Below, piece after piece: positions 21,163 through 64,000 of a stretch of DNA of 64,000 nucleotides; the first letter of the stretch is position 1; every line of letters starts with the position of its first letter. The stretch is from Streptomyces yatensis (GTDB taxonomy: Bacteria; Actinomycetota; Actinomycetes; Streptomycetales; Streptomycetaceae). The notes under the pieces were generated by a model. That model was not told where the DNA came from. It was given only the letters and a program-made list of their open reading frames with translations, and ran no database searches. Location: positions 496,001 through 560,000 of the forward strand of contig NZ_CP072941.1 in assembly GCF_018069625.1 (NCBI RefSeq), written 5' to 3'. Position numbers and translations under genes: made by a program.

Positions 21163-21387
21163 TCAGGCCGCGTCGGCGCCTTCCATGGCCTTGATCAGGC
21201 TCGTGGGGCGCATATCGGTCCAGTGGGCGTTCACGTATTCAAGCGCCGCGTCCCGCGTGGCGTCGGTCAGGACCGTGCGCCAGCCCTGAGGAACCTCGAC
21301 GAACGCCGGCCACAAGGAGTGCTGCCCCTCATCGTTGACGAGCACGAGATACGTGCCCTCGGGGTCCTCGAAGGGGTTGGTGCTCAT
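21163..21387 (-). CDS. MbtH-like NRPS chaperone
   Basis: 74 residues with the family's fixed positions: [24 protein letters not shown], then VPQGW and a C-terminal [15 protein letters not shown] block (here [12 protein letters not shown]). MbtH-like proteins bind the adenylation domains of their cognate NRPS and are often needed for folding and activity. AAGGAG precedes the ATG. It follows NRPS-3 by 57 bp in the same operon and probably serves all ten intact A domains. Confidence 0.97.
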
Positions 21388-21444
21388 GAGATCGCTCCTT
21401 CTCGAAGAAATTCTTTCACTTGACGCTTGACGTACATTCACGGC

Positions 21445-31600: not shown

Positions 31601-33339
31601 CGGTGAGGATCGGCCGGGCGTCGTCGACCATGTACGCGATGCGGTCGGCCGGGTAGGCCGGGTCGATGGGCACATACGCCGCGCCCGACTTCAGCACGCC
31701 GAGGACCGCGACGACCAGTTCCTCGGTGCGGGGCATGCTTAAGCCCACATACCGCCGCGGCCCCGCTCCCCGCTCGCGCAGCAGATGGGCCAGCCGGTTC
31801 GCCCGCGCGTTGACCTCGGAGTAGCTGAGGGACGTGGTCTCGTAGGTCACCGCGATCGCGTCCGGAGTGGCGGCCACCTGCCGCTCGAACCGGGACACGA
31901 TCGTCTCGTCGGGGGCGGAGGTGTGCCGCGGCGGTGCGGTCAGCTCTCGCCGCTCGACCGGGTCGAGGATCTGGAGGTCCTGGATCCGGGCGGCCGGGTG
32001 GGCCGCCACCTGTTCCAGCACCCGGACGAAGCGGTCGACGATGCTCTGTGCGGTGGCCCGGTCGAACAGGTCCGTGCTGAAGTCCAGCGCACAGCCCAGC
32101 CCGGCCCCGGCGGTCCCGGCCGTCTCGGCGATCTCGAAGGAGAGGTCGAACTTGGCCGAGGGCGACCCGAGCGGCCGCCCGGTGACGGTGAGCCCCGTCT
32201 GCGCGGTGAGGGGCCGAGCGGCGTTGTTCAGGTTGAGGACGGTCTGGAAGAGCGGGTGCCGGGCCAGTGAACGCTCCGGGTTGACCACCTCGACCAGCCG
32301 CTCGAAGGGCAGGTCCTGATGCGCGTACGCCTCCAGGTCGCGCGCCCGGACACGTTCGACCAGCTCGGTGAAGGTGGGGTTGCCGGAGGTGTCGGCGCGC
32401 AGCACCAGCGCGTTGACGAAGAACCCGACGAGGTCGTCCAGCGCGTCATCGGTACGGCCCGCGACAGGTGTGCCGATGGGGATGTCGCTGCCCGCGCCGA
32501 GCCGGGTCAGGAGGGTCGCCAGGGCCGCCTGCAGGACCATGTAGAGGCTCGCGCGATGCTCACCGGCGACCCGTACCAGCCGCTCGTACAGGCCCTGCGG
32601 CAGCTCGAACCCGACCCGGTCGCCCCGGTAGGAGGCGGCCGCGGGACGTGGCCGGTCGAAGGGCAGGGCCAGTTCCTCGGGGAGTCCTTCCAGCGCGCGG
32701 GTCCAGTAGGCGAGCTGGCGCGAGATCTCGCTGTCCGGGTCGGACTCGTCGCCGAGGAGGTCACGCTGCCAGAGGCTGTAGTCCGCGTACTGCACCGGCA
32801 GCGGCTCCCAGGCGGGGGCGTGGCCGGTCGTCGCGCGGGCCGCGTACGCCGCCGTCAGGTCACGCACCAGGACACCGCGCGACCAGGCGTCGCTCGCGAT
32901 GTGATGCGTCAGCAGGAGCAGGGCCGAACGGTCGGTTTCCGCACCGTCGGAGTCCGCGACGGCGGGCAGCCGGAACAGCGAGGCGCGGATCGGCATCTCG
33001 GTGGACAGGTCGAAGGCGTATGCGGCGGCCTCACGCAGCAGCCGGTCGACGGACGCCTCGTCGGCCACCTCCTCCACGGCCAGCGGCACCCGCGCCTGTT
33101 CCGGTGCGAGGACCACCTGATAGGCGCCACCACCCGTGTCGTCGGCGAAGACCGTGCGCAGGCTCTCGTGGCGTACGACCAGGTCGGCCAGGGCCTGACG
33201 CAGCGCGTCCTGGTCCAGCGGGCCGGTCAGGTCGAGGGAGATGACCATGTTGTAGGCGTCGCTCGGCCCCTCCAGGTGCTGGAGGAACCACAGGCGTTGC
33301 TGCGCGTGGGACAGCGGCACCCGGGCGGGCCGCTTGACG
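28650..33339 (-). other. NRPS module 9 (C-A-T-E), predicted D-Thr or D-allo-Thr
   Basis: Approximate borders; E domain about 28680-30190. Pocket D F W N V G M V H, the threonine code. The E domain inverts the alpha carbon, giving D-allo-Thr from L-Thr, as found at position 9 of laspartomycin. Confidence 0.9.
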
Positions 33340-45300: not shown

Positions 45301-48300
45301 CGGGGGCGGTCGAACGGCAGCGGCAGCTCTTCCGGAAGGTCGGCCAACGCGGTCTTCCAGTAGGCCAGTTGGCGGGTGATCTCACTGTCGGGTTCGTCCT
45401 CGGCGCCGAGCACCTCGCGCTGCCAGATGCTGTAGTCCGCGTACTGGACCGGCAGCGGCTCCCAGCCGGGAGCTCCGCCGGAGCCGACCCGTGCCGCATA
45501 CGCACCGGTCAGATCGCGGGCCAGCGGGCCCATCGACCACGCGTCGCTCGCGATGTGATGCGCGATGACCAGCAGGACGTACGCGTCGTCGCCCAGCTCG
45601 AACAGCCAGACCCGCAGCGGTCCTTCCGTCCGCAGGTCGAAGGCGTGGCGGGCCGCGCCGAGGAGTTCGGTGCGCAGCCGGGTCTCGTCGGTCCGTACCA
45701 CGGTGAGCCCGACCGCTTCGGCGTCCCGGACCACCTGGTACGGACCGTCGGCGTCCTCGGCGAACACCGTGCGCAGGCTCTCGTGCCGGGCCACCACATC
45801 GCCCAGGGCCAGCCGCAGCGCACCCTCGTCCAGCTCACCGCTCAGCCGCAGCGCCACCGGAATGTTGTACGTGGCACTCGGCCCCTCGAACTGGTGCAGG
45901 AACCACAACCGCTGCTGGGCCAGCGACAGCGGCAGCCGCGCCGGGCGCGGTTCCACCGCCCGCAGGGGCGAGCGCACCGCGGCGGACGCGTCCAGCACGG
46001 TCGCGAGGTCGGCGGCGGTGGGGGCCTCGAAGACCCGCCGCACCGCCAGTTCGACGTCCAGGACCGAGCGGATCCGGCTGACCAGCTTGGTGGCCAGCAG
46101 CGAATGGCCACCGAGGCCGAAGAAGTCGTCGTCGATGGTGACCGACTCCAGGCCCAGCACCTCGGCGAAGAGACCGCACAGGATCTCCTCGCGCGGCGAG
46201 CGCGGGGCCCGGCCGCCCGTCGAGCCCGGTCCGTAGTCGGGCGCGGGCAGGGCACGCCGGTCCAGCTTCCCGTTCGGCGTCAGCGGGAAGGCGTCCAGCG
46301 TCATGAACGCGGAGGGCACCATGTAGTCGGGGAGCCGCTCGGCCATATGCCGGCGCAGCTCGGCGACGCTCGGCACACCGCCATCCGCCGCCGGGACGAG
46401 ATAGGCGACCAGCCGCTTGTCGCCGGGCCGGTCCTCGCGCACCAGGACGGCGGCCTGGGCCACGCTGTCATGCCCGGCCAGCACCGTCTCGATCTCGCCC
46501 AGCTCGATCCGGAAACCACGCAGCTTGACCTGGTCGTCGACCCGGGACAGATACTCCAGCTCACCCACGGCGGTCCACCGCACCAGGTCACCCGTGCGAT
46601 ACATCCGCCCACCGCCGCTGCGGTCGAACGGGTCGGCGACGAACCGCTCGGACGTCAGCCCCGAGCGTCCGTGATAGCCACGGACCACACCCTCACCCGC
46701 GATATACAGCTCACCCGGCACCCCGACCGGGACCGGCCGCAGCCCGCCGTCCAGCACATAGACCTGAGTGTTGGCGATCGGCCGCCCGATGCGCGGGCTG
46801 CTCGCCCGCTCGGGGGCGACCTGCCACGCCGTCGACCAGATCGTGGTCTCCGTCGGACCGTACAGATTCGTCACCGACTCAGCCCGACCGGCCAGCGCCA
46901 CGGCCAGATCGGCGGGCAGCGCCTCGCCACCCACCAGCACCCGCACACCGCTCAGCACGGCCGGGTCCTCGGCCAGCACCGCCCGCCACAGACTCGGCGT
47001 CGCCTGCATCACCGACACCCGCTCGGCCGACACCAGCGCACACAACGCCACCGGATCGCGCACCACATCCCGCTCGGCCACCACCACCGCGGCGCCGGAC
47101 AGCAGGGGCACGAACAGCTCCAGCCCCGCGATGTCGAAGCCCACCGTGGTCACCGCCAGCAAACGGTCCCCATCCGAAAGCCCGAACCGCCCGGCCATGG
47201 CCACCGCAAAGTTCGCCAGCGGCCCCTGTGGCACCACCACACCCTTGGGCCGCCCCGTCGAACCCGACGTATAGATCACATACGCCGCATGCGACAGGGC
47301 CCGAGGAGCGGTCCGCCCCTCCCCCGCCGTCCGGGAAAGCTCCTCGGCGGTCTCGGGCGCATCCAGCAGCACACGCGGCACATCCACATCCGGCAACACA
47401 CCCGCCAGCTCACCCGTGGTGAGCACAAGGGCCGGTGAGGCGTCCCGCAGCATGTACGCCAGCCGGTCCGCCGGATACTCGGTGTCCAACGGGAGATACG
47501 CCGCCCCCGCCTTCCACACCGCCAGCAACGCCACCACCAGATCCACCGACCTCGGCAACGCCACCGCGACAAAACACTCCGGACCCACCCCACGACCCAC
47601 CAGCAACCGCGCCAAACGGCCGGCACGGACATCCAACTCGCGATACGACAGCGACACACCACCCGCCACCACCGCCACCGCATCCGGCGTCCGCTCCACC
47701 CGCTCCTCGAACAGCACCACCACCGAACGACCCGGCACCTCACCCGCCGTGTCATTCCAATCCACCAGCACCGACCGCGCCTCGGCCTCGCCCAGCACAT
47801 CGATGCGGCCGACCGGCAGCTCGGGCTGGGCGACGAGGGCGTGCAGGATCCGCACAAAGCGGTCCAGGACGCGCTGGGCGGCGGTTTCGTCGAAGATGTC
47901 GGGCCGGTAGTTGAGCCTGAACAGCATGGTGTCGCGGGCGGAGCCGACCAGCATCAGCGGGTAGTGGGTGGCTTCGCGGTCCTTGCCGGGGACGAGGCGG
48001 ACGGCGGCGGCGATGCCCTCATCGGCGGTGGTGTCGCGGTCGACGGGATAGTTCTGGAACACCATGGAGGTGTCGAAGAGCTCGCCGTGGCCCACCGCGC
48101 GCTGGATCTCGGCGAGTTCGAGGTGCTGGTGCGGCGTGAGGCGGGTCTGCTCGGCCTGGACGCGGGTGAGGAGTTCGGCGAACGGTTCGGCGGCTCGCAG
48201 CCGGATCCGGGTGGGCAGGGTGTTGATGAAGAGGCCCACCATCCGTTCGACGCCGTCGATCTGCGGCGGGCGCCCGGAGACGGTGGTGCCGAAGACGATG

Positions 48301-49109
48301 TCGTCGCGTCCGGTGTGCCGGCCGAGGGTGAGCGCCCAGGCGGTCTGTACGACGGTGTTGAGGGTGACGCCGCGGCTCCGGGCGATCTCGGTGAGGGCGG
48401 CGGTGTCGGATCGGGAGAAGGAGGCGAGGACCTCGGCGGACGCGACCGTGGTGCGGGCGATTCCGGGGGCCACCGGGCTGGGTTCGGCGAGGTCGGCGAA
48501 TGCCTCGCGCCAGGCGGTGCGGGCCGCCTCGCGATCCTGTGCCGCCAGCCAGCCGAGGTAATCGCGGTAGGGGCGTACGCGGGGCATGGCGCCGTCGTCG
48601 CCGTGGGCGTCGTAGAGCGCACACAGTTCGCCCATGAGGACGGGCAGCGACCAGCCGTCCAGCACCAGGTGGTGGTTGGTCAGCACCAGGCGGTGGAGCG
48701 AGGCGCCGAGCCGCAGGAGCGTGAAGCGCAGCAGCGGGGGCCGGGTCACGTCGATCCGGGTACTCCGGTCGGCGGCCATGGCCTCGGCCGCGGCCGCGGT
48801 CCGCTCGTCCTCGGGCACCGCGGTCAGGTCGGTCTCGGTCCAGGGCAGCGGCACGGTGCGCATCACCACTTGCGCCCAGTCGCCGTTCTTGCGCTGGCGG
48901 AAGGCGGCGCGCAGGGTGGCGTGGCGGGCCAGCAGGGCCTCGGCGGCGGTGCGCAGGGTGGCCGTGTCCAGCGGGCCCTCGATGTCGAAGGCCGCCTGGA
49001 CGACGTAGGGGTCGAGTTCGCCCTGGTCGTAAACGCTGTGGAAGAGCAGGCCCTCGTGGAGCGGGGCCAGCGGCAGGATGTCCTCGATCTTCCGCGGGGT
49101 GCGACTCAC
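28650..49109 (-). CDS. NRPS-2: modules 4-9 ending in an epimerase domain (6 x C-A-T, E)
   Basis: 6,819 residues from a GTG at 49109 that overlaps the NRPS-1 stop by 4 nt (GTGA). Six C-A-T modules are followed by an E domain. The first condensation domain is DCL type ([26 protein letters not shown] start), fitting a D-Pip donor from NRPS-1. Pockets give Gly, Asp, Gly, Asp, Gly, Thr. Carrier motifs are [10 protein letters not shown], but GGDSIMSIQ in module 9, the form usual before an E domain. The E domain has [10 protein letters not shown], so Thr9 becomes a D residue. Asp5-Gly6-Asp7-Gly8 is the Asp-X-Asp-Gly calcium motif of this lipopeptide class. Codon use is uniform, but modules 4-8 are internally repeated almost word for word. 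Confidence 0.97.
33340..36544 (-). other. NRPS module 8 (C-A-T), predicted Gly
   Basis: Approximate borders. Pocket D I L Q L G M I W. Condensation motif HHIVSDAWS. Third copy of the Gly module, about 6.31 kb from module 6. Confidence 0.88.
36545..39649 (-). other. NRPS module 7 (C-A-T), predicted Asp
   Basis: Approximate borders. Pocket D L T K I G A V N. Condensation motif HHIASDAWS. Shares long identical stretches with module 1 of NRPS-1 at a fixed offset of 19,388 bp. Confidence 0.88.
39650..42849 (-). other. NRPS module 6 (C-A-T), predicted Gly
   Basis: Approximate borders. Pocket D I L Q L G M I W. Condensation motif HHIVSDAWS. The A domain is nearly identical in DNA to that of module 4, about 6.31 kb away. 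Confidence 0.88.
42850..45964 (-). other. NRPS module 5 (C-A-T), predicted Asp
   Basis: Approximate borders. Pocket D L T K I G A V N, the Asp code of calcium-dependent lipopeptides (DLTKLGAVN type). Condensation motif HHIASDAWS. Confidence 0.88.
45965..49109 (-). other. NRPS module 4 (C-A-T), predicted Gly
   Basis: Approximate borders. Pocket D I L Q L G L I W, the established glycine code. The acceptor is Gly rather than methyl-Asp, which separates this system from friulimicin and amphomycin and groups it with laspartomycin/glycinocin. Confidence 0.9.
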
Positions 49110-52100
49110 TTGCGGGCCTCTTCTTCGTCTTCAGGAGCGTGTACGTCGTCGTATGCGGCCGGCTCTTCGTCGTCCGGCATGTCGTCGAAAAGGTCGCCGA
49201 GTTCGTCCTCGAACGCCTCGATCTCGTCCTGGGTGATCGAGGACAGGGAGACGTCGGAGGGGGTGAGCCCTCCGGCTTCGGGGTTCTCGGCGTGGGCCAC
49301 GAGGGCTTGGAGTGCCCGGAACCACAGGTCGGCCAGTGCGCGGACCTCGTCCTCGTCGAGGATCCCCCCGGCCCAGCTCCAGTAGGCGACGAGTTGCGAG
49401 CCCTGGGGGCCGTCGTGGGTACGGGCGTTGAGCTCCAGGGCGTGGGCGAGCGGCAGGTGGGGCGGGTCGCCGGCGACGCCGTCGATGCCGATGAGCGGGG
49501 TCCAGTCGGCGTTCTGGCCGGCGGCCGCGGTGGAGAAACGCCCCAGGTAGTTGAAGGCGACCTGAGGGTCCCGCAGCCCCGCGAATCCCTCTGCCGTGGC
49601 GGGGTTGAGATGGCGGACGAGGCCGTAGCCCATGCCCTTGTCCGGCACCGCCCTCAGCTGTTCCTTGACGCGTTTGAGGATGTCTCCGGCGCTCCGCCCG
49701 CCCGCGAACGCCTCGGCGAGGTCGGCGGCGCCCGTCTCCAGGCGCACGGGGTAGAGGTTGGTGAACCAGCCGACGGTGCGGGACAGGTCGGCGCCGCGCA
49801 CCAGGTGTTCCTCGCGGCCGTGCCCCTCCAGGTCGAGGAGGAGGCCGGGGTCCCCGCGCCACTGTTCCCACGCCAGGGTGAACGCGGTCAGCAGAACGTC
49901 GTTGACCTCGGCGTTGAACGCGGCGGGCACTCGGGTCAGCACGGCTTCGGTGACGTTCACCGGCAGGGTGACGCTGATCCGGCCGGCGGCCGCGGTCGTG
50001 TCCCGGGCGGGGTCCAGGGCCCGGCGGCCGAGCCCGCGGTCCTCCTTGCGGAGCGTTTCCTGCCACCAGGCGGCGTCGGCGACCCAGGTGGGCGCGGCCG
50101 CTTCCTCGGTCAGCCGCTGGGCCCAGCGGCGCAGCGAGGTGCCCACGGGCTGGAGTTCGGGGGTGCGGCCGGCGGCGATGGCTTCGTGGGCCTCGGCGAG
50201 GTCGGGTACGAGGATGCGCCAGGACACCCCGTCGACGACCAGGTGGTGGACGAGGAGGAGCAGGAGGCCCGGTGTGTCCGCGCCGCGGTCGAACCACACG
50301 GCCTGGACGACCGTGCCCCGGTCCAGGTCGAGCCGGTCCCTGGCGCTCTCGCCCTCCGCCCGTACCAGAGCGGCGAGGGCGTGTTCGTCGAGGGGCGTGC
50401 CGTTCTGTCCCTCGGCCGTCACCCGGCGCACCAGCGGCGCGGCGTCGACCGTGCCGGGTTCCCGTATCTCCATGCGGCGTCCGGGGCCGGCGGTGAGCCT
50501 TGCCCGCAGGGCGTCGTGGTGGTCCAGGAGCGCCTGGAGGGCCTGGGTGAGGGTGTCGAGGCGCAGCGCCGCCGGGGTCTGGAGGACGACGGACATGTTG
50601 AATCCGTCCAGGTCCTCGCCGCGCCGCAGCAGCCAGTGGGCGATCGGGGTGAGGGGCACCTCGCCGATGCCGGCGCCCGGCTCCTCGGCGACGGCTTCCT
50701 CCACCTCCGTGACGACGTCGGCGAGGGCCGCCACGGTGCGGTGCTCGAAGATGTCGCGGACGGAGAGTTCGAGTCCGGCGCGCCGGGCCCGGCCGACGAG
50801 CTGGATGGACATGATGCTGTCGCCGCCGAGGTCGAAGAAGCCCTCGTCGATGCCGACCGCGTCGAGCCCCAGCACTTCGGCGTACAGCCCGCACAGGGTC
50901 TTCTCCCGCTCGGTGCGCGGGCCCCGGCCCGTGCCGTCGCGGTCGGTGGCGGGGGCGGGGAGCGCGCGCCGGTCGAGCTTTCCGTTGGCGGTGAGGGGCA
51001 GTTCGGACAGGACCGTCACGGCCGAGGGGACCATGTAGTGCGGCAGGTGCTGTTCGAGGTGGCCGCGCAGGGTGGGTACGAGGTCGGCTTCGTCGTGGGT
51101 GCCTTCCGGTACGACGTAGGCGACCAGCCGGGTCGTCCCGGGGGTGTCCTCGCGGGTGACGACGACCGCGGTGTCGACGCTCGGATGGTCGCCGAGCACG
51201 GCCTCGACCTCGCCGGGTTCGACGCGGAAGCCGCCGATCTTCACCTGGTCGTCGACGCGGCCGAGGAACTCCAGTTGCCCCAGGCGGTTCCAGCAGACGA
51301 TGTCACCGGTGCGGTACATCCGGGAGCCGGGGGCGCCGAACGGAGTGGCGACGAAGCGTTCCGCGGTGCGGCCGGGCCGGTTCAGGTAGCCGCGGGCGAT
51401 CTGGGCGCCGGCGATGTAGAGCTCCCCGCGCACACCGGGTGGCACCGGCCGCAGGTGTGCGTCGAGCACATGGACCTGGGCGTTCCACAGTGGCTGGCCG
51501 ATGGACGCGGACGAGGGCCACTCGTCGGTGTCCTCGGGGAGGGTGGTGGAGGTGGCCGCGTGGGTCTCGGCCGGGCCGTAGATGTTGTGCGCCATGTGGC
51601 GCCAGTCGCCGGCGCAGAACCGGCGGAGTTCGCCGCTGAGCCGGAACTGCTCGCCGCCCTGGAAGATGTCGGTGAGCGAGTCCAGTGGTTCGCCGCGGTC
51701 CTCGGCGGCCGCGAGCACCGCGTCGATCATCAAGGTGGGCGCGAACAGCTCATTGACACCGTGGCGGGCGATCCAGTCGACCAGTTCGTAGGCGTCGCGC
51801 CGGACGTGTTCCTCGGGCAGGACGAGTGTTTTGCCCGCCACCAGCGCCTGCAGGATCTCCTGTACCGCGAAGTCGAAGGCGACGGCGAGGAACTGGGCGG
51901 TGCGGGTGCCGACGCCGCCGCTGTAGGTGTCGGTGTGCCAGGCGAGCAGGTTCATCAGCGACGCCATCGGCATCACCACACCCTTGGGGGTCCCGGTGGA
52001 GCCCGAGGTGTAGACGATGTACGCCGGATGGCGCGGGTCGAGCGGGCGGGCGCGGTCGTCGTCCGTGAGGTCGGTGGCCGGGGCGTCGGCGAGCGCCCGT

Positions 52101-53929
52101 ACGGTCGCCGGGTCGTCCAGGACGAGGCAGCGGGCCGGTCCGGTGCCCAGGAGGGGGCGGGTGGCCGCGTCGGTGATCAGGGCGCGGGGTGCGCAGTCCT
52201 CGACGATGGCGCGCAGCCGCTGCTCGGGGGCCGAGGTGTCGAGGGTGAGGTAGGCGGCGCCCGTCTTGAGGACGGCGACCAGGGAGACGATCATCTCCGC
52301 CGACCGGGGCAGGGCGATGGCCACGATGTCCTCGCCGCCGATGCCCTCGGCGGCCATGAGCCGGGCCAGCCGGTTGGCCCGGGCGTTGAGCTCCTCGTAG
52401 GACAGGGTGGTGTCCTCGGAGATCAGCGCGGTGGCTCGGGGCTCCTGGGCGCTCTGCCGCTCGAACAGGACGGGCACGGTGTGTGGCGGCACCTCGTGCG
52501 AGGTTCCGTTCCACTCATGCAGGATGTGCCGGGTTTCGGCACGCGTCAGAATGTCGAGCCCGCCGATGGGCATGTCCGGGTCGGCCACCACGCCTTCGAG
52601 CACCCGCAGCAGCCGCGCGGCGAAGCCGTTGGCGGTCTCCCGGTCGAAGAGGTCGGCGTTGTACTCGACTGCCGCGTGCATACCGGTCGGCTCGCCCGTG
52701 GGCCCGTAGGTCTGGTCGAAGAAGAACGCGAGGTCGAACTTGGCGCGTCCGGTCTCCTGGGCCCGTACGTCCATGGTCAGGCCCGGCAGCCTCAGCACGT
52801 CGAGGGCGTCCTGGTTGTTGTCGAAGCCGAGCAGTACCTGGAACAGGGGGTGGCGGGCGAGCGAGCGGACGGGGCTCAGCACCTCGACGAGCCGTTCGAA
52901 CGGCAGGTCCTGATGGGCGTAGGCGCCGAGGTTGGTCTCGCGGACCCGGCCGACGAGTTGGGTGAAGGCGGGGTTGCCGGAGGTGTCGGTGCGCAGCACC
53001 AGCGTGTTGACGAAGAATCCGACCAGGTCCTCCACGGCGGCGTCGGTGCGCCCCGCGATGGGGCTGCCGATCGGCACGTCGGTACCGGCCCCGAGCCGGG
53101 TCAGCAGCGTCGCCAGGGCGGCCTGCACCACCATGAACAGGCTCGACCGGGTGTCGCGCGCCAGATCCGCCAAACCCGCGTGAAGCTCCGCGGGGACCTC
53201 GAAACCGACCCGCCCGCCCTGGTGGGACTGGCGCGGCGGCCGGGGCCGGTCGGTGGGCAGCTCCAGTTCCGCGGGGAGATCCGCGAGGGCCTGCTTCCAG
53301 TGGGCGAGTTGGCGTGAGATCTCGCTGTCGGGGTCGTCCTCGGCACCGAGTACCTGTCGCTGCCACAGGGTGTAGTCGGCGTACTGCACCGGCAGCGGCT
53401 CCCACCGCGGGGCCTCGCCCGTTTCGACGCGCGCCGTGTACGCGGACGACAGATCGCGGGCCAGCGGGCCGAGCGACCAGCCGTCGCCCGCGATGTGGTG
53501 GAGCGCCAGGACGAGGACGCGCTCTCCGGTGTGGGTGGTGAACAGCCAGCCGCGGACGGGCAGTTCGCCGGTGAGGTCGAACGGGTGGGAGGCCGCGGCC
53601 CGCACCCTGTCCTCCAGTTCCTCGGGGGCGACCGTCTCCTCGATCAGCTCCGGTCGTGCCTGCGAGGCGGGCAGGATGACCTGCCGTGCGCCGGTACCTT
53701 CCTCCGTCTCCTGCGCGAAGAGCGTGCGCAGGCTCTCGTGGCGCGCGACGACGTCGCCGAGGGCCAGGCGCAGCGCGGTGCGGTCCAGGGTGCCGACGAG
53801 CCGCAGGGTGACCGGGATGTTGTAGGTGGCGCTGGGGCCCTCCAGGTTGTGCAGGAACCACAGCCGCTGCTGTGCGTACGACAGCGGAAGGCGGGGCGGG
53901 CGCGGGGCGGGGGTCACGGGAGGCCGGGC
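49106..53929 (-). other. NRPS module 3 (C-A-T-E), predicted D-pipecolate
   Basis: Approximate borders; E domain about 49200-50760. Pocket D F Q F F G I A A (278 uncertain), closest to the DFQLLGVAV code linked with pipecolate in the rapamycin/FK506 enzymes and related to proline codes DVQ-. The lysine cyclodeaminase gene supports pipecolate over proline. Confidence 0.75.
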
Positions 53930-56900
53930 GCCGGACGCCTCGTCGATCACCGCGGACAGTCCCGCGACGGTCGGGTTCTCGAAGAGCCGGCGGATGGAGA
54001 TCTCCACGCCGAGCACCGAGCGTACGCGGCTGAGCAGCCGTACGGCGGAGAGGGAATGGCCGCCACTGGCGAAGAAGTCGTCGTCGATGCCCACGGAGGG
54101 GACGCCCAGCAGCTCGGCGAAGAGGGTGCACAGGATCTGTTCCCGCGGGCTGCGCGGCGCCCGGGACGGCTCGGTCCGCCGGTCGTCGGGTTCGGCGGCC
54201 TCGTCCGGCCGCTCGGCGGGGGTCTCGACCAGCCGCAGCTCCCCGTCGTGGGACCAGCGGGCCACCCGGCCGGTGGGGTGCAGCGCGCTGCCCTGGTCGA
54301 AGGGGCACGGGAGCGGCCGGTCGGAGTCGGCGGTATCGGTGCCGTCTCCGGCGCCCGGGGCCGGGCTCCGGTGCGCCACGTACAGCGTTCCGGGAACACC
54401 GGGAGCCACCGGGCGGAGGCTCTCGTCCAGTACGTAGGCCCGCGTGCCGCTCACCCCGTCGGGCAGTTCCACCTGTGACAGCACGGCGGCCACACCCGGG
54501 CGGCGGATGTCGCTCCACTCCTCGAGGACGGCCGTCCGCTCGGCCGCGTCGAGGATCTCCGCCTCGAAGACCCGCCGATCCGGCTCCCCGGCCATGGCGG
54601 CCAGCAGCCGCAGGTAGCGCTCCCGGAGGGAGCGGGCCGTGCCCGGCTCGAAGAGTTCGGCGCTGAACTCCAGGTCGGCGGCGATGCCCGCGGGCCTGCC
54701 CGCGTCGTCGAACCGCTCGGTCAGCTCGAAGTTGAGGTCGAACTTGGTGTCCTCGATCGGCAGCCGCTCCAGCTCCACGGCGAGCCGCGGCAGCCGGGCG
54801 ACCTCGGCGACCGTGGCCCGGGGGTCGGTGTGGTGGAGCGAGAGCGACACCTGGAAGAGCGGGTGCCGGGAGAGCGAGCGCTCCGGATTGAGCACCTCCA
54901 CCAGCCGCTCGAACGGCAGGTCCTGATGGGCGTACGCCGCCAGGCTCCGCTCCCGGACCCGCTCGATCAGCTCGTGGAACGTGGGATCGCCCGAGGTGTC
55001 CGTGCGCAGCACCAGCGTATTGGCGAAGAACCCGACCAGCTCCTCGACCGCCGTGTCGGTGCGGCCGGCGATCGGTGTGCCGATGGGGATGTCGGTGCCC
55101 GCGCCGAGCCGGGTCAGCAGTGCCGCGAGCCCCGCCTGCAACACCATGAACAGGCTGGAGCGGGTCTCGCGGGCCAGCCCGTAGAGCGCCTGGTGGAGTT
55201 CGGCCGGGATGCGGAAGGAGTCCTGGCCGCCGCGCTGCGTCAGCTCGGCGGTGCGCGCCCGGTCGGCGGGCAGCGCGAGCTCGTCCGGGAGGCCGGCCAG
55301 CGCGGTGGTCCAGTAGGCGAGCTGGCGGGAGAGCTCGCTGGCCGGATCGTCCTCCCGTCCCAGGACCGCCCGCTGCCAGAGGCTGTAGTCGGCGTATTGC
55401 ACCGGCAACGGCTCCCACCGCGGGGCGTCGCCCGTTTCGACGCGCGCCGTGTACGCCGTGGCCACGTCCCGCGCCAGCGGCCGCATCGACCAGCCGTCGC
55501 CCGCGATGTGGTGCAGGAGGAGCAGCAGTACGTGCTCGTCCGGCCCCAGCTCGAACAGGGTGACCCGCAGCGGAGGTTCATGGGCCAGATCGAAGACGTA
55601 CCGGGCCTCGGCCATGAGCTCGGCCGCGAGCCGGGTCTCGTCCACCGTCCGCACGCCGGGCTCGACCGCGGCGTGCGACGGGTCCAGGACGATCTGCGTG
55701 AAGCCCTCTTCGTCCTCGGCGAAGACGGTGCGCAGGCTCTCGTGGCGCGCCACCACGTCGCCCAGGGCCAGCCGCAGCGCCTCCCGGTCCAGCGGGCCGG
55801 TCAGCCGGAGCGCGCCGGGCGCGTTGTAGGCGGTGCTGCCGTCGCCCAGCAGGTCCAGGAAGCGGAGGCGGGCCTGCGCGTACGAGACGGGGACACGGGA
55901 CGGGCGCGCGGTCGCGGTCAGGGCGGGACGGGCGGCGGCGGTGCCGAGGGCCGTCCGGTCCAGGGTGGCGGAGATGCCCGCGACGGTGGGGGTCTCGAAG
56001 AGCTGCCGGATGGGCAGCTCGGCGTCCATGACGCTACGGATCCGGCTGACCAGCTTCGTCGCCAGCAGGGAGTGGCCGCCGAGGCGGAAGAAGTCGTCGT
56101 CGATGGTGACCGACTCCACGCCCAGCACCTCGGCGAACAGACCACAAAGGATCTCCTCGCGCGGCGAACGCGGGGTGCGGCCTTCCGTACCCTCCGGCCC
56201 GTAGTCGGGCGCGGGCAGGGCACGACGGTCCAGCTTCCCGTTCGGCGTCAACGGAAGCTCGGGAAGGGTGACGAACGCGGAGGGCACCATGTAGTCCGGC
56301 AGCAGGGCTGCGGCATGGTCCCGCAGGACCGCATCGGAAACGTGGGAACCCACCACCACATAGGCCACCAGACGCTGATCCCCGGCCCGGTCCTCCCGCA
56401 CCACCACAGCCGTCTGCGCAACGTCGGGGTGACCGCTGATGACGGCCTGGATCTCGCCCAGCTCGATACGGAAGCCCCGCACCTTGACCTGGTCATCGAC
56501 CCGGCCCACGTACACCAACTGGCCATCGGCGTTCCACCGCGCCACATCACCCGTCCGATACATCCGCGCACCCGCAGGACCGTACGGATCGGCGGTGAAC
56601 CGCTCCGCCGTCAGATCCGTACGACGCCAATACCCCCGCGCCAGCACCACACCGGCGATGTACAGCTCACCCGCCACTCCCGGCGGCACCGGACGCAACG
56701 ACGCGTCCAGCACATAGGCACGGGTGTTCCAGAACGGCCGCCCGATCGGCACCGCACCCCCGGCAACCATCTGCCCCGGTTCGATCCGGAAGTCGGTGCA
56801 GTTGACCGTCGCCTCCGTCGGACCGTACGCATTGACCACCGCCACATCCGGATGCGCGGCCCGCCACGAGGCCAGCGCCTCACCCACCAGCGCCTCACCA

Positions 56901-59035
56901 CCGGTGATCAACGTCCCCGACGGCGACACCTCCTCGGGCAGCGCTTCCAACAGCCCCAGGTGGGAGGGGGTGACCTTCATAAACGACGGACGACCAGCAT
57001 CCCCAGCCCGCTCATCAAGCTCACCCAGCACCACTCGGCCACCGCTCACCAGCGGGGTGTACAACGCCGTCACCGTCAGATCGAAGGCCACCGAAGAGTG
57101 CAACAGGGCCGGACCCGACGCATCCGGATACACCTCCCGCGCCCGCTCCAGATACGCCCCCACCGAACGGTGCTCGACCACCACACCCTTCGGCCGCCCC
57201 GTCGAACCCGACGTGTAAATCACATACGCGGAGGTGTTGAGATCGGTGATCGCCTGCACGCGCTCATCCGGATACGCGTCAGCCGCCGCGAGCGCCGCCA
57301 CATCGTCGATCACCAGCACCGGCCGTGCGTCGCCCAGGATGTGCGCTGTCCGCTCGGCCGGGTACTCCGGATCCACCGGCACATACGCACCACCCGCCTT
57401 CACCACACCCAGCAGCGCCACCACCAGCTCCACCGACCGGGGCAGCACCACCGCCACAAACGACTCCGGCCCCACCCCCTGACCCACCAACCACCGCGCC
57501 ACCCGGTTCGACCACGCGTCCAGCTCGGAGTAGGTCAACCGGACCTCGTCACACACCACCGCCACCGCGTCCGGTGTCCGTTCCACCTGCTCCCCGAAGA
57601 GCACGGGCAACGACACACCTCGCACACCGCGCGACTCACCATTCCACTCGACCAGCACCCGCTCCCGCTCCACCGCGTCGAGCAACTCCACGTCACCGAT
57701 CCGGCGGTCGGGCTGTTCCGCGACCCACTCCAGCACCCGCACCAGCCGTTCCTGGTGGGCGGCGATCTCTCGTTCGTCGTAGAGGGCAGGGTCGGCGTCG
57801 AACTCCACGCGGATGCCCGTGCCGGAGCCTGCCGCGCCATAGAAGTTGATCTTCAAGTCGTTGACGGGCCCGGTGGACAGCGGGTGGGGGGTGGCCGGGC
57901 TGTCGCCGAAGAGGAGCTCGTCGACGTAGGCCACCACATTGATCGTCGGGCCGAGGCGGGCCTGGCGGCCGCCTGAGAGCCCGAGTTCCCTGACGAGTTC
58001 CTCGCCCCGGAACCGCTGGTGCCTGATGACCTCGGCCAGCGAGCGGGACACCGACGCGACCAGCTCCGTGAACGTGGTCCCCGGGGTGGCGGCCACGCGA
58101 ATGGGCAGGACGTTGACCATCGCGCTCGGCGTGTTCAGGGACACCCGGCCGGTGCGGCCCGCCAGCGGCAGCGAGAAGGTGAGGTCCGTCCGGCCGGTCA
58201 GGCGGTGATAGAGGACGGCGGTGGCCGCGATGGCGACGGCCGGCCACTGCGCGCGGAGCCGACCGCCCAGCGCGGTCAGCCGATCGGCCAGGGTGGTCGG
58301 CAGGGTGACGATGCGACGCAGACCGCTGTGGGTGCTGCCGGCGGAACGTCCCGCGAGCGCCACCGGGTCAGGCATCTCCTCGAACAGGTCGAGCCAGTAG
58401 GCCCGGTCCTGGGCATAGCGGCGCGAGCCCGGATAACCGGCCTCCTCGGCGATCACCCGGTCGAGGGTGGCGAAGCCGGTCGCGGGCGGCTCGGTACCGG
58501 TGATCAGGGCGGTGTAGAGGGCCGCGACCCGCGCACCGTACACGGACTGGCCGAACGCGTCGAGGACGGCGTGGTGGTAGCGGTGGAAGTAGAAGGACCG
58601 GTCGTCGGCCAGGAGCAGGAGGGTCTGATCGCTCAGGGGGCCGCGGCCGAGGTCGAAGGGCTCGAGCATCTCCGCGTTCATCCACGCGTGCGCCGCGGCC
58701 TCCGGATCCGCCGCGTCGCGCAGGTCGCGCACGCGCAGGGACGTCGGCTCGGCGGGCGCGACGAGCTGGCACAGCCGGGTGTCGTCGGTGCGGCCGGGGT
58801 CCTGGGTGTGGTCGGTGTCCTCGATGTCCTCGGCGAGGTACGACCGCAGCGCCTCGGTCTCGTCGACGGCCCGCCGTACCGCCTCGTGGAGGACGTCCGT
58901 GTCGATCGGACCGTCGATCTCCAGATAGGCGCCGCAGTTGTAGAGGGGACTGTCCGGCTGCAGTTGCTGGGCGACCCACATGCCCAACTGGGCGGCGCTT
59001 ACGGGTCGTCGGAGCGTACGGGCGGCGTCGGACAT
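49106..59035 (-). CDS. NRPS-1: lipo-initiating modules 1-3 with A-less module 2 (C-A-T-C-[A remnant]-T-C-A-T-E)
   Basis: 3,309 residues. It opens with a starter condensation domain of distinct sequence (active-site HHAVLDAFG), which should join the acyl chain from the ACP to residue 1. Module 1 has an Asp pocket. Module 2 has a complete C domain (HHIAGDGWS) and carrier (GGHSLSAVR), but only about 118 residues where an A domain of about 500 belongs. Module 3 has a pipecolate/proline-type pocket and ends in an E domain ([10 protein letters not shown]), giving a D residue; its carrier reads [11 protein letters not shown]-terminal acidic tail ([14 protein letters not shown]) may dock on NRPS-2. 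The ATG at 59035 has only a weak AGAGGA upstream. Confidence 0.96.
53930..55969 (-). other. NRPS module 2 (C-[decayed A]-T), substrate must come in trans
   Basis: Approximate borders. The C domain ends near 54525 and the carrier starts near 54165, leaving about 355 bp. Two scraps of A domain remain: [24 protein letters not shown] (in two pieces of a motif, the strand around core A6) and [18 protein letters not shown] (core A7). Cores A1-A5 and A8-A10 are gone, yet the frame is open throughout. Confidence 0.9.
54165..54525 (-). other. Adenylation-domain remnant inside NRPS-1
   Basis: In-frame residue of a deleted A domain between C2 and T2. Aligning to the intact Asp modules, the A6 piece (54370-54460) and the A7 piece (54220-54300) are recognisable, joined by a Gly/Asp/Pro-rich stretch. 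It holds no ATP-binding or substrate-pocket residue, so it cannot activate an amino acid. Confidence 0.9.
55970..59035 (-). other. NRPS module 1 (starter C-A-T), predicted Asp
   Basis: Approximate borders. Pocket D L T K I G A V N (Asp). The starter C domain carries HHAVLDAFG, departing from HHxxxDG after the Asp, which fits an unusual donor such as acyl-ACP. Confidence 0.85.
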
Positions 59036-59431: not shown

Positions 59432-60367
59432 TCAGGGACGGTCGGGGAGGGGGCGTTCGGCCAGGTCGAAGGAGTGGCCGGTGTCGTAGCGGCGGTCGAG
59501 TTCCGCGTACAGGCGCTCCAGGGCGGCCTGCGACGGCCGCGGTGTCCCACGCCCAGGTGTGCTGCGTGCGGCACGTGTGATGAGTGCGTGGCCGGGCGCC
59601 GCGGCGAGCAGTTCGGGGTCGCACAGCGCGGTGACGGCCGGTGCGGTGGTGAGGTCCGCGGCGGTCATGCCGCTGAGCGGAGCGGCGGCATCGGCGGGAT
59701 TCGGCGGCCGGCCCAATGGGCCGTCCGCCGCGAAGAGCGCGCTCTGCATCTCGTTCAGCAGCAACTGGAAGGCGGGGTGTTCGCCCTCCCTGATGTAGAA
59801 GCGCGACCCCATGGCCAGCGAGAGGCGGTCCATCGCGTCCTGGAGCACACGCGGTACGAGGAATCGGACCACTCGGTCGTGGGCGCCCGGCCGGGCGGGG
59901 AAGGCATCGGTGTTTCGTACGGCGAGTGTGGTCAGCGTGTCGCACAGCAGCAGGTCGGCGCAGGCTCCCGCGAGCACCGCGCGCAGCTGCGGGATGTCGA
60001 TGGCCGCCGCTCCGTACAGGCGCCGGGCCCGCAGGTGGCGCAGCGTCATGCGCAGGCCGGAGTCCAGTGTGCCGACGGCGGCCGCCCCTGTCGTCACGGT
60101 GCCGCTCCCCCGCTGGGCCCCACCGCCGGAGCGGGTCAGCAAGGGCGATCTGCGGTACCCGGCGCGCAGGGCGTGCATCAGCGACTCCGAGTCCACATCG
60201 CCGCCACCAATGCCGTCCACGCGGAAGGGCTTACCGGCCGGCGGCTGTCCGGCCTCCCGTGCATTGAGGATCGCCTGGAAGCCGTTGGGGTTGGTGGTGT
60301 CGTAGGGGTCGCCCAGGCGCTCTTCCACGGTGGCGGCGAGGGCGATGGGGCCGGTGGCGGTGGTCAC
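59432..60367 (-). CDS. Short acyl-CoA dehydrogenase-like protein, partner subunit
   Basis: 311 residues from a GTG at 60367 that overlaps the upstream dehydrogenase stop by 4 nt (GTGA). The N-terminus (EERLGDPYDTTNPNGFQAIL) resembles the start of acyl-CoA dehydrogenases, and the second half (residues about 105-230, LRHLRARRLYGAAAIDIPQLR...) resembles their C-terminal helical bundle. The middle beta domain is nearly absent, so alone it should not bind FAD well. The likely reading is a heteromeric dehydrogenase with the full-length protein upstream, like known alpha2-beta2 FadE pairs in mycobacteria. Some lipopeptide clusters with unsaturated tails carry two such genes. Confidence 0.75.
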   Translation of the reverse strand: MTTATGPIALAATVEERLGDPYDTTNPNGFQAILNAREAGQPPAGKPFRVDGIGGGDVDSESLMHALRAGYRRSPLLTRSGGGAQRGSGTVTTGAAAVGTLDSGLRMTLRHLRARRLYGAAAIDIPQLRAVLAGACADLLLCDTLTTLAVRNTDAFPARPGAHDRVVRFLVPRVLQDAMDRLSLAMGSRFYIREGEHPAFQLLLNEMQSALFAADGPLGRPPNPADAAAPLSGMTAADLTTAPAVTALCDPELLAAAPGHALITRAARSTPGRGTPRPSQAALERLYAELDRRYDTGHSFDLAERPLPDRP

Positions 60368-62130
60368 GAGGCGGCCCCCTCCTGGGAGCTGGTGGGCTCC
60401 ACGTGGTCGAGGAGCGAGTGGAAGGGGGCGGACGGGCGGGCGAGGACCGCTTCCGCGAGGTCGTCGAAGACGGTGCGGTCGGCGTCGTCGACGGGCTCCT
60501 CCAGATCGGTGAGCGCCTTGACGAGACAGGCGAGCAGGGCGGTCTCCGGGAGGGGGCCCTGGGCGCGGGCGGCGGCGCGCAGCCACAGGTGGAGCGCCGA
60601 GGCCGCCGCGAAGCACGACTCGAACCGCTCGGCGAACCGGAACGCGTGGCCGGGGACGGCGCGGGGCGAGAACCGGATCGCCGCCAGGTCCTGGTGGAGC
60701 CGGTCGGACACCTCCAGGAGCCGCCCGGCCAGGGTGGTGAGCGCCGTGGAGGCATGGCCGCGGGCGGCCAGGTCGCGCAGTTCGCCGACCGCGGCCGGCA
60801 GGCCGGCCACGACGGAGCAGCCGCCGCTGGAGACCAGGCCGAACGCGCCGGGCCGCATCGGCCGCAGGGGGGCGTGCGGATCCGTGGCCTCGGCGAGGCC
60901 CTCCGCGTCCCAGCGGCCCTTCGCGTAGCCGCGGGCGATGCGGGGGAACTGCTCGATGAGGGCACTGCGGTTGACCAGGCTGCTGCCGTCGAAGATGCCG
61001 ATGATGCGGTGGTCGCGTTCCACCTTGGCGAATCCGGTGTGCGGGTCGTCGGCGCGGAGCAGTCCGTACGGGCCGAGGAGCTGCAGCAGGCGCGCGATGA
61101 GGGTGTCGACCTCGGCGGGCACATAGGCCTTCGTGGCGGCGGAGATGACGCTCATCTCGCCGGCGAGCGCGTGCGGGGAGCGCGCCGCCACCACGCCGGT
61201 GGCGTCGGCGAGCAGCAGGCCCGCGGCGGCCTCGCCCAGCTCCCGCCGCACATACGGGTCCCGTGCGAGCCCTCCGCCGTCCTGGGCCACGAACTCGGCG
61301 GCCAGGGCGAGTGCGTGGTCTCCCGCGCCCAGTGACATCGCGGCGCAGCCGGTCCGGGACAGATGCAGCGCCTTGAGGATGATCTCGATGCCCCCACCGA
61401 CCCGCCCGATGAGCGCGTCCTCGGGCAGTGGCGTGTCGTGGAAGGCGATGCCGCTGATGTCCGCGCCCCGGATGCCGTAGGTGGGCACTTTGGGCAGATG
61501 GGTGAAGCACTCCGGGGCGAGGCGGGACTTGTCCGCGAGGAAGAGGCTGAAGCCGCGCGGTCCGCCGTTGTCGTCGGTGCGGGCGAGGACGGTGACCAGG
61601 CCGGCCCGGGTGGCGGAGTTGATCAGCCACTTCTCGCCGGACAGCAGCCAGCCGCCGTCCGGGGCGGGCCTGGCGGTCAGCTCACCGGCCATCAGGTCGC
61701 TGCCGTGGTGGCGTTCGGTCAGGGCGCAGGAGACGGTCGTTCCCTCCGCTATCCGCTCTCCCAGCCGGCGGGCGGCCTCCGGCTCTCCCGCGACCCAGGT
61801 GGCGGCGGCCCCGAGATAGGTCTTCCCGTGCGAGGCGGCCACGGTCAGGTCGATCCGGGACACGGCCCGCAGCAGTCGCATGACGACGTCGAAGCTCTCC
61901 AGCGCGCCGCCGTGTTCGGCCGGTACGTAGTAGCGCCGCAGTCCGAACGCGTCCAGCGCCTGGCATGCCTCGGCGGGAAACGCCTCCGTCCGGTCGAGTT
62001 CGGCGAGCGCTTCGGATGAGAAGGGCTGCCCGGGCCCGGTGAGCTCGCCGAGCAGGCGGGTGAGCCGCTCGACGGGCGCGGCGGAGGGGTTCTGGGTCGG
62101 GGAGGCGGTGGTCGGGGAGGCGGTGGTCAT
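60364..62130 (-). CDS. Acyl-CoA (acyl-ACP) dehydrogenase for the lipid tail
   Basis: 588 residues from an ATG at 62130 overlapping the FAAL stop by 4 nt (ATGA). N-terminal helical domain to about residue 130, beta domain with CALTERHHGSDL and GEKWLINSA (FAD/substrate segments), then the C-terminal helical domain with the flavin-side segment IIGIFDGSSLVNRSAL. About 190 extra C-terminal residues go beyond the usual length of about 390 and resemble the tails of larger bacterial members. It should introduce the 2,3 double bond known in laspartomycin-type acyl chains, most likely on the ACP-bound acid. Confidence 0.88.
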   Translation of the reverse strand: MTTASPTTASPTQNPSAAPVERLTRLLGELTGPGQPFSSEALAELDRTEAFPAEACQALDAFGLRRYYVPAEHGGALESFDVVMRLLRAVSRIDLTVAASHGKTYLGAAATWVAGEPEAARRLGERIAEGTTVSCALTERHHGSDLMAGELTARPAPDGGWLLSGEKWLINSATRAGLVTVLARTDDNGGPRGFSLFLADKSRLAPECFTHLPKVPTYGIRGADISGIAFHDTPLPEDALIGRVGGGIEIILKALHLSRTGCAAMSLGAGDHALALAAEFVAQDGGGLARDPYVRRELGEAAAGLLLADATGVVAARSPHALAGEMSVISAATKAYVPAEVDTLIARLLQLLGPYGLLRADDPHTGFAKVERDHRIIGIFDGSSLVNRSALIEQFPRIARGYAKGRWDAEGLAEATDPHAPLRPMRPGAFGLVSSGGCSVVAGLPAAVGELRDLAARGHASTALTTLAGRLLEVSDRLHQDLAAIRFSPRAVPGHAFRFAERFESCFAAASALHLWLRAAARAQGPLPETALLACLVKALTDLEEPVDDADRTVFDDLAEAVLARPSAPFHSLLDHVEPTSSQEGAAS

Positions 62131-63902
62131 ACGGCGGCCTCCTGGGGCTCGGGTAAGGGGCGCAGCAGGCTCTGCTCGTAGACCGCGTAGGTGGGCCGCA
62201 GCTCGCCGGCGCGGAACAGCTCGCGCATCGCGGACCGCTGGATCTTGCCGCTGGTGGTGCGGCGTACTCCGCCGGGGCGCAGCAGCAGGACCGCGCCGAC
62301 GGGGGCGCCGAATTCGCGGGCGACGGTGAGCCGCATCTCGGCGGCGAGTTCGCTCAGCCGTTCCTCGTCCTTGATGCCGCGCACCTCGTGGGTGACCACG
62401 AGGACGTCGTCGCCCTGCGGGCCCTCGCCGGGTACGGCGAAGCAGGCGCCGACGAGGTTGCCCAGTTCGGGCCACTGGGTGCGCAGTTCCTGCTCGATGT
62501 CCTGCGGATAGAGGTTGCGGCCGCGCAGGTTGAGGACGTCCTTGATGCGGCCGGTGATGTGGAGTTCGCCCTCGTAGAGGACTCCGAGGTCTCCGGTGCG
62601 CAGCCAGTCGGTGTCGCCGTCCGCGGTGGTGGCGTGGAACTCGGCCTCGTTGGTGGCCTCGCGGTTCCAGTAGCCGTGGCCGACGATGTCACCGCGGATC
62701 CAGATCTCGCCGACGTCGCCATCGGGCAGGACCTGCCGGGTGTCGGGTTCGACGATGCGCACCTCGGCGCCGAGCGGCGGGCCGCAGCCGACGACGGCGC
62801 GGGCGGGCTCGTCGGGGGCCGCGGGCCGGAACTCGTGGCGTTCCAGGAGTTCGGCGGAGACATGGCGCACGCGGGGGGCGGTGCCGGCGGCCCCGGCGAT
62901 GAAGAGGGTCGCCTCGGCCATGCCGTAGCAGGGGGTCAGGGCGTCGGCGCGCAGGCCGTGGGCGGTGAAGCGGCGCTGGAATCGTTCGAGCACGGCGGCG
63001 CGTACGGGTTCGGAGCCGTCCAGCGCGTGCCGCCAGCGGGACAGGTCCAGGCCCTCGCTCTGGGCGTCGGTGACCCGTCGGCTGCACAGGTCGTAGGCGA
63101 AGTCCGGTGCCGCGGAGGCCTCGATGCCAAAGCGGTCGACCATGTGCAGCCACAGGTGGGGGCGTTTGAGGAAGGTGGTGGGGCTCATCAGGACGGTGGT
63201 CGACCCGAGCAGCAGCGGCGGGAGGATCGAGCCCATCAGCCCCATGTCGTGGAAGTGCGGGATCCACCCGCCGATGGGGGTGGTCTCGTTCAGTTCCAGC
63301 GAGTCGGCGAGGTTGGCGGTGTTGTGCAGCACATTGCCATGGCTGATCATCACGCCCTTGGGGTCGCCGGTGGAGCCGGAGGTGTACTGGAGCACGGCGA
63401 GCGTGTCGTGTCCGGCGGGCGCCATCGTCCATGCGTCGGGATCGGCGGCCTCGCCGTCATCGGTGACCAGGAGGGGAAGGGTGTCGAGCCCCTCCTCGGC
63501 GGCCCATGCCTCGATGTCGGCGCGGGTGGCGGTGTCGGTGAGGATCGCCACGGCGCCCGCGTCGTCCGCGATGCGCCTGACCCGGTAGCGCTCGTGCCGG
63601 TACCGGCCGGGCAGGGACGAGGGAACCGCGACGGCGCCGGCGTACAGGCAGCCGAGGAAGGCGATGAGGAAGGCCGGCCCGGCGGGGTACAGCAGGACGA
63701 CGCGGCCCCCCGGCGGGACATGGGCGCGGAGCCGTACGGCGACGCTCCTGGCCTGTGCGTCGAGTTCCGCATAGGTGAGCCGTTGCGCTCCGTCGGCGCG
63801 CAGCGGGTCCGTCACGAATACGGCCGCCGTCTTTTCCGGACGGTTTTCCGCATGCTCCCGGAGCACTGCGTCAACGGTGGGGGCGGTGACGATTCCCGCC
63901 AT
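62127..63902 (-). CDS. Fatty acyl-AMP ligase (FAAL), lipopeptide starter enzyme
   Basis: 591 residues. ANL-superfamily motifs: YTSGSTGDPKGVM, GGWIPHFHDMGLMG, SPTTFLKRPHLWL followed by APDFAYDLC (a FAAL hallmark), CYGMAEATLFI, TDWLRTGDLG, GRIKDVLNLRGRNLYPQDIE. Such enzymes activate a fatty acid as acyl-AMP and pass it to an ACP rather than to CoA, as DptE does for daptomycin. The ATG at 63902 gives the usual N-terminus; an in-frame GTG at 63959, three or so bases after a possible transcription start, would add 19 residues and cannot be excluded. First gene of the operon seen here. Confidence 0.93.
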   Translation of the reverse strand: MAGIVTAPTVDAVLREHAENRPEKTAAVFVTDPLRADGAQRLTYAELDAQARSVAVRLRAHVPPGGRVVLLYPAGPAFLIAFLGCLYAGAVAVPSSLPGRYRHERYRVRRIADDAGAVAILTDTATRADIEAWAAEEGLDTLPLLVTDDGEAADPDAWTMAPAGHDTLAVLQYTSGSTGDPKGVMISHGNVLHNTANLADSLELNETTPIGGWIPHFHDMGLMGSILPPLLLGSTTVLMSPTTFLKRPHLWLHMVDRFGIEASAAPDFAYDLCSRRVTDAQSEGLDLSRWRHALDGSEPVRAAVLERFQRRFTAHGLRADALTPCYGMAEATLFIAGAAGTAPRVRHVSAELLERHEFRPAAPDEPARAVVGCGPPLGAEVRIVEPDTRQVLPDGDVGEIWIRGDIVGHGYWNREATNEAEFHATTADGDTDWLRTGDLGVLYEGELHITGRIKDVLNLRGRNLYPQDIEQELRTQWPELGNLVGACFAVPGEGPQGDDVLVVTHEVRGIKDEERLSELAAEMRLTVAREFGAPVGAVLLLRPGGVRRTTSGKIQRSAMRELFRAGELRPTYAVYEQSLLRPLPEPQEAAV

Positions 63903-63968
63903 ATCCGAGGCCCTGCCCTTCGTGTCCGCGAACTGAGTTTCCAGATGCCGATCCGGCACCGTTGTGCA

Positions 63969-63997: not shown

Positions 63998-64000
63998 GGC

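Follow-up and report, generated by a model that had tools for sequence, protein, structure and literature searches.

The closest described systems are those of laspartomycin and friulimicin, for which, as for malacidin, a synthetase with the domain order CAT-CT-CATE and an A-T-TE protein acting in trans have been published. Products of this type contain one exocyclic and ten ring residues (both from the accessible part of PMC9113097). The cis-to-trans arrangement in the LpmB/PstB family is therefore already in print, where Streptomyces malaysiensis also appears as a predicted glycinocin producer. Other routes to a charged carrier are described in the available parts of further sources. During capreomycin biosynthesis, L-Dap is charged directly onto the T domain of an A-less module by the A domain of another module (PMC12400406). 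PacP is an A-T-TE0 protein with spontaneous transfer to another T domain, and in the case of LgnA a type II TE transfers Thr to the T domain of a C-T module (PMC8748450).

In this study, we examined a window of 64,000 nucleotides (G000:C1:496001-560000) that lies in a 10.36-Mb genome assembled as a single contig; "the window" always means this whole stretch. We consider it highly probable that it encodes a line of the laspartomycin/glycinocin type, in which module 2 lost its A domain after a trans-acting A-T-TE protein had taken over position 2.

Domain architecture and the A-domain remnant of module 2

Module 2 is part of an LpmB/PstB-type synthetase of 3309 amino acids with the order CAT-CT-CATE, encoded by an open frame at 49106..59035 on the minus strand, as are all other window features given below. 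By Pfam, this frame has four stretches of the condensation type, three carrier stretches and two each of AMP-binding and AMP-binding_C. With an HMM set made from the domains of the window itself, it reads C-A-T-C-(A fragment)-T-C-A-T-E, the last C-like match being taken as a putative E domain. C2 (54524..55894, placed by HMM and motif) carries an intact HHIAGDG motif and T2 (53945..54136), the proposed acceptor for the trans-supplied amino acid, an intact GGHS motif, which agrees with the initial annotation, where both had been described as functional in appearance. The intact A1 (56234..57598) and A3 (50978..52465) domains served as controls for the remnant.

The same HMM set revealed a PstC/LpmC-type synthetase with six modules and six A domains (28650..49109) and a PstD/LpmD-type synthetase with two modules and two A domains in the order CAT-CAT (21445..29568). 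Furthermore, an acyl-CoA dehydrogenase, a feature used to judge membership of this cluster type, is present in the open frame 60364..62475. An AMP-binding protein of 610 amino acids (62127..63959) is, from its position, probably a fatty acyl-AMP ligase (FAAL). The open frame 21163..21441 was putatively assigned to an MbtH-like protein by a search for a motif typical of such proteins.

The three synthetases hold 2 + 6 + 2 = 10 cis A domains for 11 modules, and one trans A domain (see below) raises the total to 11, which agrees with the 11 residues of products of this type. This count bears on the alternative that module 2, being without an A domain, is dead and skipped. We regard skipping as very improbable and rejected it, since the A-domain total matches an 11-residue product and since the active-site motifs of C2 and T2 are kept in all ten PstBs checked, with mean identities of 79% for C2 and 85% for T2. 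A tree of C1, C2 and C3 from these ten PstBs, the members from A. friuliensis included, resolved the three positions as separate groups (support 100/100 for C1, a moderate 85/78 for C2, 95/92 for C3). Since the C2 of A. friuliensis falls among the other C2s, the module 2s are most likely orthologous.

Between C2 and T2 lies a gap of 129 residues (54137..54523), somewhat longer than the roughly 118 residues first estimated, which was characterized by HMM and PDB matches. It matches an A-domain HMM, built from the window's 11 AMP-binding domains (10 NRPS A domains and one FAAL-like), at profile positions 305-393 of 486 with 34.8 bits. When the gap alone was searched with filters off, the score was 41.2 bits versus 5.0 bits for the best shuffle (2000 made, 1367 reported); with the frame open from end to end, the original description of A2 as an in-frame remnant holds. 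The Pfam AMP-binding profile gave a marginal match to the gap (E 0.0066, below its cut-off). Against A domains in the PDB, E values went down to 5e-10 for the gap and to 5e-26 for a profile of 18 remnants.

Alignment with the intact A domains, together with constraint and a predicted model, placed the A6 hairpin of the lost domain at 54371..54448 and the A7 hairpin at 54224..54286. The homology to A6 and A7 had been recognized correctly in the initial annotation; what were called two scraps are, rather than unrelated pieces, one colinear A6-A8 block, in which a loop of variable length stands in for the segment joining the two hairpins in intact domains. A1-A5 and A9-A10 are absent from module 2, and the parts that bind ATP and substrate are indeed missing. 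That sequence is missing to either side of the block is compatible with the suggested deletion in at least two steps, though it is no proof of it. The predicted model of C2-remnant-T2 is of middling quality (mean pLDDT 70.7), and some C-A structures align with it to about residue 565 at an rmsd of 3.7 or more, giving weak evidence that the block may be seated as in an intact module.

The proposed A-T-TE partner and possible routes of loading

The initial annotation had called for a separate loading enzyme and proposed to look for it first in the 30 kb beyond position 64000. At a distance of 2.2 kb from the end of the window, a candidate gene (G000:C1:562231-565497, minus strand; L001:3231-6497) encodes 1088 amino acids with AMP-binding, AMP-binding_C, carrier and thioesterase matches; loading of T2 by this protein is predicted. 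It is 90% identical to a protein of S. malaysiensis, 70% to LpmA (aligned over 86%) and 58% to PstA of A. friuliensis, and it groups with LpmA and PstA in a tree. Upstream on the same strand are genes for a PLP-dependent enzyme, whose resemblance to SbnA falls short of the curated cut-off, and for an argininosuccinate-lyase-like enzyme. The frame L001:6497-9103, also upstream, has ATP-grasp and L-amino-acid-ligase matches; an overlapping frame of 449 amino acids (L001:6534-7883) showed no family match and is probably not the gene at this place. The laspartomycin cluster reportedly contains dabA, dabB and dabC genes, going by the abstract of Wang et al. (2011).

In a one-genome-per-species collection, 454 relatives of the partner gene were confirmed, of which the best 80 were taken as loci for comparison. 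PALP and lyase genes lie upstream of the A-T-TE gene in 24 of the 30 loci among these best 80 that have no Pls/PosA-like neighbour. At nine specificity positions, placed by motif according to the GrsA numbering, 107 of 117 aligned relatives share the letters DIWQSTADD, and two acidic residues among them would suit a diamino acid. Seven strains or species were recovered both with the partner relatives and in a separate protein search using only the remnant as query, namely S. malaysiensis, S. lincolnensis, S. muensis, S. cyaneochromogenes, NPDC093568, Je 1-332 and, putatively, 1331.2. This overlap lends some independent support to the pairing.

According to the explanation that we favour, an A-T-TE protein related to LpmA and PstA would have taken over activation of the position-2 residue, and module 2 would then have lost its own A domain. 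The residue would most likely be a 2,3-diamino acid made by the PLP-dependent enzyme and the lyase that are encoded immediately upstream of the partner; for a product of this type, Dap or Dab would be expected at position 2. C2 and T2 would still work, and the A6-A7 block would be the eroding remainder of the old A domain, not needed for loading. Both the loading of T2 by the partner and this order of events are what we infer from the locus and its relatives. A stand-alone A frame (L002:3649-6528) was also considered as the loader and set aside; it has the Pfam AMP-binding domain and its C-terminal domain only, with no T or TE, and appears less plausible in this role than the A-T-TE protein.

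Alternatively, the A domain of another module could act twice, serving module 2 in a trans-iterative manner, as CmnA-A1 does when it loads CmnI, also an A-less module with L-Dap, in capreomycin biosynthesis (PMC12400406, as far as accessible). We think this improbable here, since the cluster contains a dedicated A-T-TE protein with conserved specificity letters and the published proposal names A-T-TE relatives.

The TE domain of the partner bears on how trans loading by the A-T-TE protein might proceed. Among the 117 aligned relatives (four shorter proteins of 121 were left out of the alignment), the nucleophile is Cys in 93, Gly in 14, Ser in 8, Asp in one and a gap in one. The window's partner has a Ser in GHSTG, and thus differs from a Cys-type shuttle. 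Ser is found throughout its clade, the sister clade (LpmA and S. cyaneochromogenes) has no nucleophile, and the two together form one clade (100/100) among proteins with mostly Cys or Gly. The motifs with the lost nucleophile are GQGTG and SQDSD in S. cyaneochromogenes and in LpmA as deposited, with 942 amino acids (L006; P0126, P0157). Much of the partner family could plausibly use its TE as a shuttle; for the window's clade such a shuttle is not supported and would not be needed, and direct charging or unaided transfer would fit better. T2 may be charged directly by the A domain of the partner, or the amino acid may pass via the partner's own T domain to T2, with or without help of the TE. 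Biochemical work on PstA or LpmA was not found in the accessible passages.

Residues 1-230 of the partner hold two weak, colinear condensation-domain matches, to profile positions 215-273 (11.0 bits) and 400-455 (3.3 bits) of 457, the second of which reaches 14.8 bits in one relative. Such matches were seen in 12 of 13 relatives tested, the window's protein included (E up to 1), and are absent in P0226. Solved C-A structures align continuously with the partner from residue 164. The partner would thus appear to derive from a C-A-T-TE module whose C domain has lost its N-terminal half, and the eroded C-terminal half at its start would be a relic reciprocal to the A stub of PstB. In S. lasiicapitis, the C-T module of a different synthetase (L128:4648-8310, minus strand, with L129:2-8659, plus strand) carries a more complete A6-A8 block. 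In its vicinity lie the gene for an A-T protein with two PstA-like C fragments (216-268 and 405-454; 7.3 and 14.3 bits) and a separate TE gene, and this locus is possibly a second instance of a cis-to-trans switch.

At 50 of the 80 A-T-TE loci (best 80 of 454), namely L027, L029-L032, L036-L053, L055-L072 and L074-L082, the A-T-TE gene adjoins a gene for a protein similar to that of L029 (E 1e-50 or better), the Pls/PosA family having been assigned by HMM for L029 alone. This neighbour has a carrier and no A match in 45 of the 50 cases and an A domain in two (L060, L078), and no carrier was found in three. The TE nucleophile is Ser at all 50 of these loci versus Cys at 18 of the 30 others among the best 80. 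Together, the two proteins seem to form a poly-amino-acid synthetase that is split and receives its units in trans. A link to the S. albulus synthetase for poly-Dap as a further A-T-TE protein was dropped, as it has no traditional TE according to the accessible part of PMC4668381.

Occurrence in other genomes and stages of loss

A junction query of 211 residues was run against the genomes of 24 partner-bearing loci; as these had been picked via the partner gene, the pairing of junction and partner is circular in this set. An LpmB/PstB-type junction was the best match in 13 of the 24 genomes, with 61-90% identity (in one over part of the query only), and the C2 domains of these 13 are 73-96% identical to that of the window. 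Four further C-T modules with an A6-A8 block belong to other or unplaced synthetases (L096, L097, L098, L107). Furthermore, 392 evenly sampled genomes from the genus, the own genome included, were searched at a threshold of E 1e-38 or better. Junction matches were obtained in 12 genomes, seven of them PstB-type, with the own genome among the seven. Ten loci re-read from this sample, five PstB-type and five from other synthetases, all have C-T junctions of 105-134 residues with an A-HMM match. The five PstB-type junctions, like L137, are identical to ones from the earlier searches and therefore extend the count without new sequences.

These results speak to a possible artefact, namely an assembly collapse that deleted about 1.2 kb between near-identical A domains, for which the many similar A domains of the genome would offer the opportunity. 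The initial annotation had named such a misassembly as the finding that would overturn its claim. The junction occurs in independent assemblies, in the 13 genomes reached via the partner gene and, counting the own genome, in seven of the even sample, and the remnant is of different length and sequence in different species, a pattern that a collapse would not produce. We consequently rejected a collapse as next to impossible.

Across 31 PstB-type entries, made up of 18 proteins and 13 genome loci with several entries standing for the same gene, the C2-T2 gap measures 105-142 residues. Most of the window's close relatives have 128-134 residues here, P0248 having 116, and most amphomycin-like and S. 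pilosus-like entries have 115-123, with 129-142 in three. The shortest gap among these stub-bearing entries, 105 residues, is that of S. cyaneochromogenes, where the loop is lost. A. friuliensis (G054, assigned by 100% identity to its PstA) and a relative, G066, have C-T junctions of 27 and 25 residues, respectively, and neither has an A match. The comparison of homologous clusters, proposed at the outset, thus yields orthologous junctions at different stages, one without a remnant, and supports the idea of a fossil of a switch from cis to trans loading. The PstB junctions are graded states and not an ordered series, since the Actinoplanes branch is sister to the Streptomyces branch. As the friulimicin producer has a 27-residue junction and no stub, trans loading does not need the stub, and the remnant is, to judge from these sequences, dispensable for this architecture.

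Mean identity across the ten PstBs is 69% for the A6 hairpin and 66% for the A7 hairpin, whereas the loop reaches 49% with 36% gaps and the two linkers reach 54% and 58%. The same hairpins in the intact domains reach 85% and 92% in A1 and 86% and 81% in A3. For the A6/A7 hairpins, dN/dS was 0.13/0.04 in the amphomycin-like clade, 0.27/0.61 in the window's clade and 0.46/0.43 in a third clade, each value resting on few sites and the three clades being small; the A7 hairpin of the window's clade (0.61) shows no clear constraint. The stub appears relaxed but not free of constraint. The slower evolution of the hairpins relative to loop and linkers goes beyond what an idle relic would require and counts against our favoured explanation.

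The A6-A8 block in other modules and comparison with known systems

In fold and extent, the remnant corresponds to a 77-residue piece of an A domain whose crystal structure was solved together with an MbtH-like protein (6eby). The position that likely makes the MbtH contact, inferred via spacing from the accessible part of PMC7593251, is Ala in all ten intact NRPS A domains of the window (seven by script, three by eye). The window's remnant has Pro there, as do 24 of the 27 distinct PstB junctions; in the other three, the motif is deleted or could not be aligned. This Pro weakens the case for MbtH docking in PstB.

The remnant might instead be retained for a job in the A-less module, such as docking of an MbtH-like protein or capping of C2. 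Its match to the isolated fragment bound to FscK in 6eby would fit such a role, as would the conservation of the A6/A7 hairpins over the gapped loop in the ten PstBs and the survival of the A6-A8 block in A-less modules of other synthetases. We nevertheless consider retention for a job unlikely, given that A. friuliensis and G066 have no remnant, that the contact alanine is replaced, deleted or unalignable in the PstB junctions, and that hairpin identity stays below that of the intact A1/A3 hairpins (0.81-0.92).

To describe A-less modules more broadly, 234 proteins, a pool drawn by similarity to the window and no survey, were examined with domain HMMs. A C-T junction of less than 330 residues was present in 46 of them. 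The A6-A8 block is kept in 25 of the 46 by script, and P0247 was added as a 26th by eye; 20 have a short clean junction, including seven that keep the A7 strands and the C-terminal subdomain in a C-T module (P0053, P0065, P0069, P0073, P0074, P0082 and P0113). Each of these seven proteins also holds another C-T module without a remnant. P0004, P0005 and P0056 (S. decoyicus, S. gilvosporeus and S. stramineus) contain two A-less modules each, both with the A6-A8 block. Fuller blocks were found in L144 (102 bits), whose module retains both alanines, and in L098 (91 bits).

In a tree of 99 C domains, made by a quick method with 21 of 96 inner branches open and long branches flagged, the PstB C2s adjoin the PstB C3s. 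For most of the other C-T modules, the C domain groups with those of its own synthetase family, L098 being an exception. This tree does not support a single origin of all block-bearing C-T modules and suggests that the A domain was lost repeatedly, although gene conversion among neighbouring C domains could mimic such a tree and hide common descent. A tentative and on balance doubtful idea is that, in actinobacterial C-T modules, the A6-A8 block is a retained, self-folding MbtH-interface piece, serving as a cap or as a docking site for a trans A-T(-TE) protein or MbtH; its use in PstB would be waning, and the friulimicin branch would have dropped it.

A search of the open-licence library for A domains described as remnant, truncated or vestigial brought up no title or abstract that treats an A6-A8 block. 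Our searches of the open-licence literature likewise yielded no account of the stages of loss, of the match between the stub and the MbtH-interface fragment, of the recurrence of the stub or of the altered nucleophile. The graded orthologous junctions, from 142 to about 25 residues, show what an NRPS module can lose and yet persist, and they bear on the engineering of trans-loaded modules. The recurrence of the subdomain and the change from Cys to Ser or none raise the questions of whether the stub has any role and whether a TE is needed for charging T2.

Among known systems, LpmB with LpmA and PstB with PstA show the same CAT-CT-CATE architecture with a trans A-T-TE protein, LpmB being compared by its published description (PMC9113097, in part). 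The window's C2 groups with that of A. friuliensis; the junction there, at 27 residues, has no remnant, and PstA has a Cys nucleophile where the window's partner has Ser. With regard to the stub, 6eby consists of the interface-forming fragment of FscH and the MbtH-like FscK, whereas the PstB remnants have the likely MbtH-contact alanine replaced. CmnA-A1/CmnI of capreomycin likewise involves an A-less module whose T domain is charged with L-Dap in trans (PMC12400406, accessible part); there the A domain comes from another module without a dedicated A-T-TE protein, whereas the window's line has one. PacP of pacidamycin and LgnA/LgnB/LgnD of legonmycin, likened here by description (PMC8748450, accessible part), are similar in using an A-T-TE0 protein or an A-T protein plus TEII for transfer.
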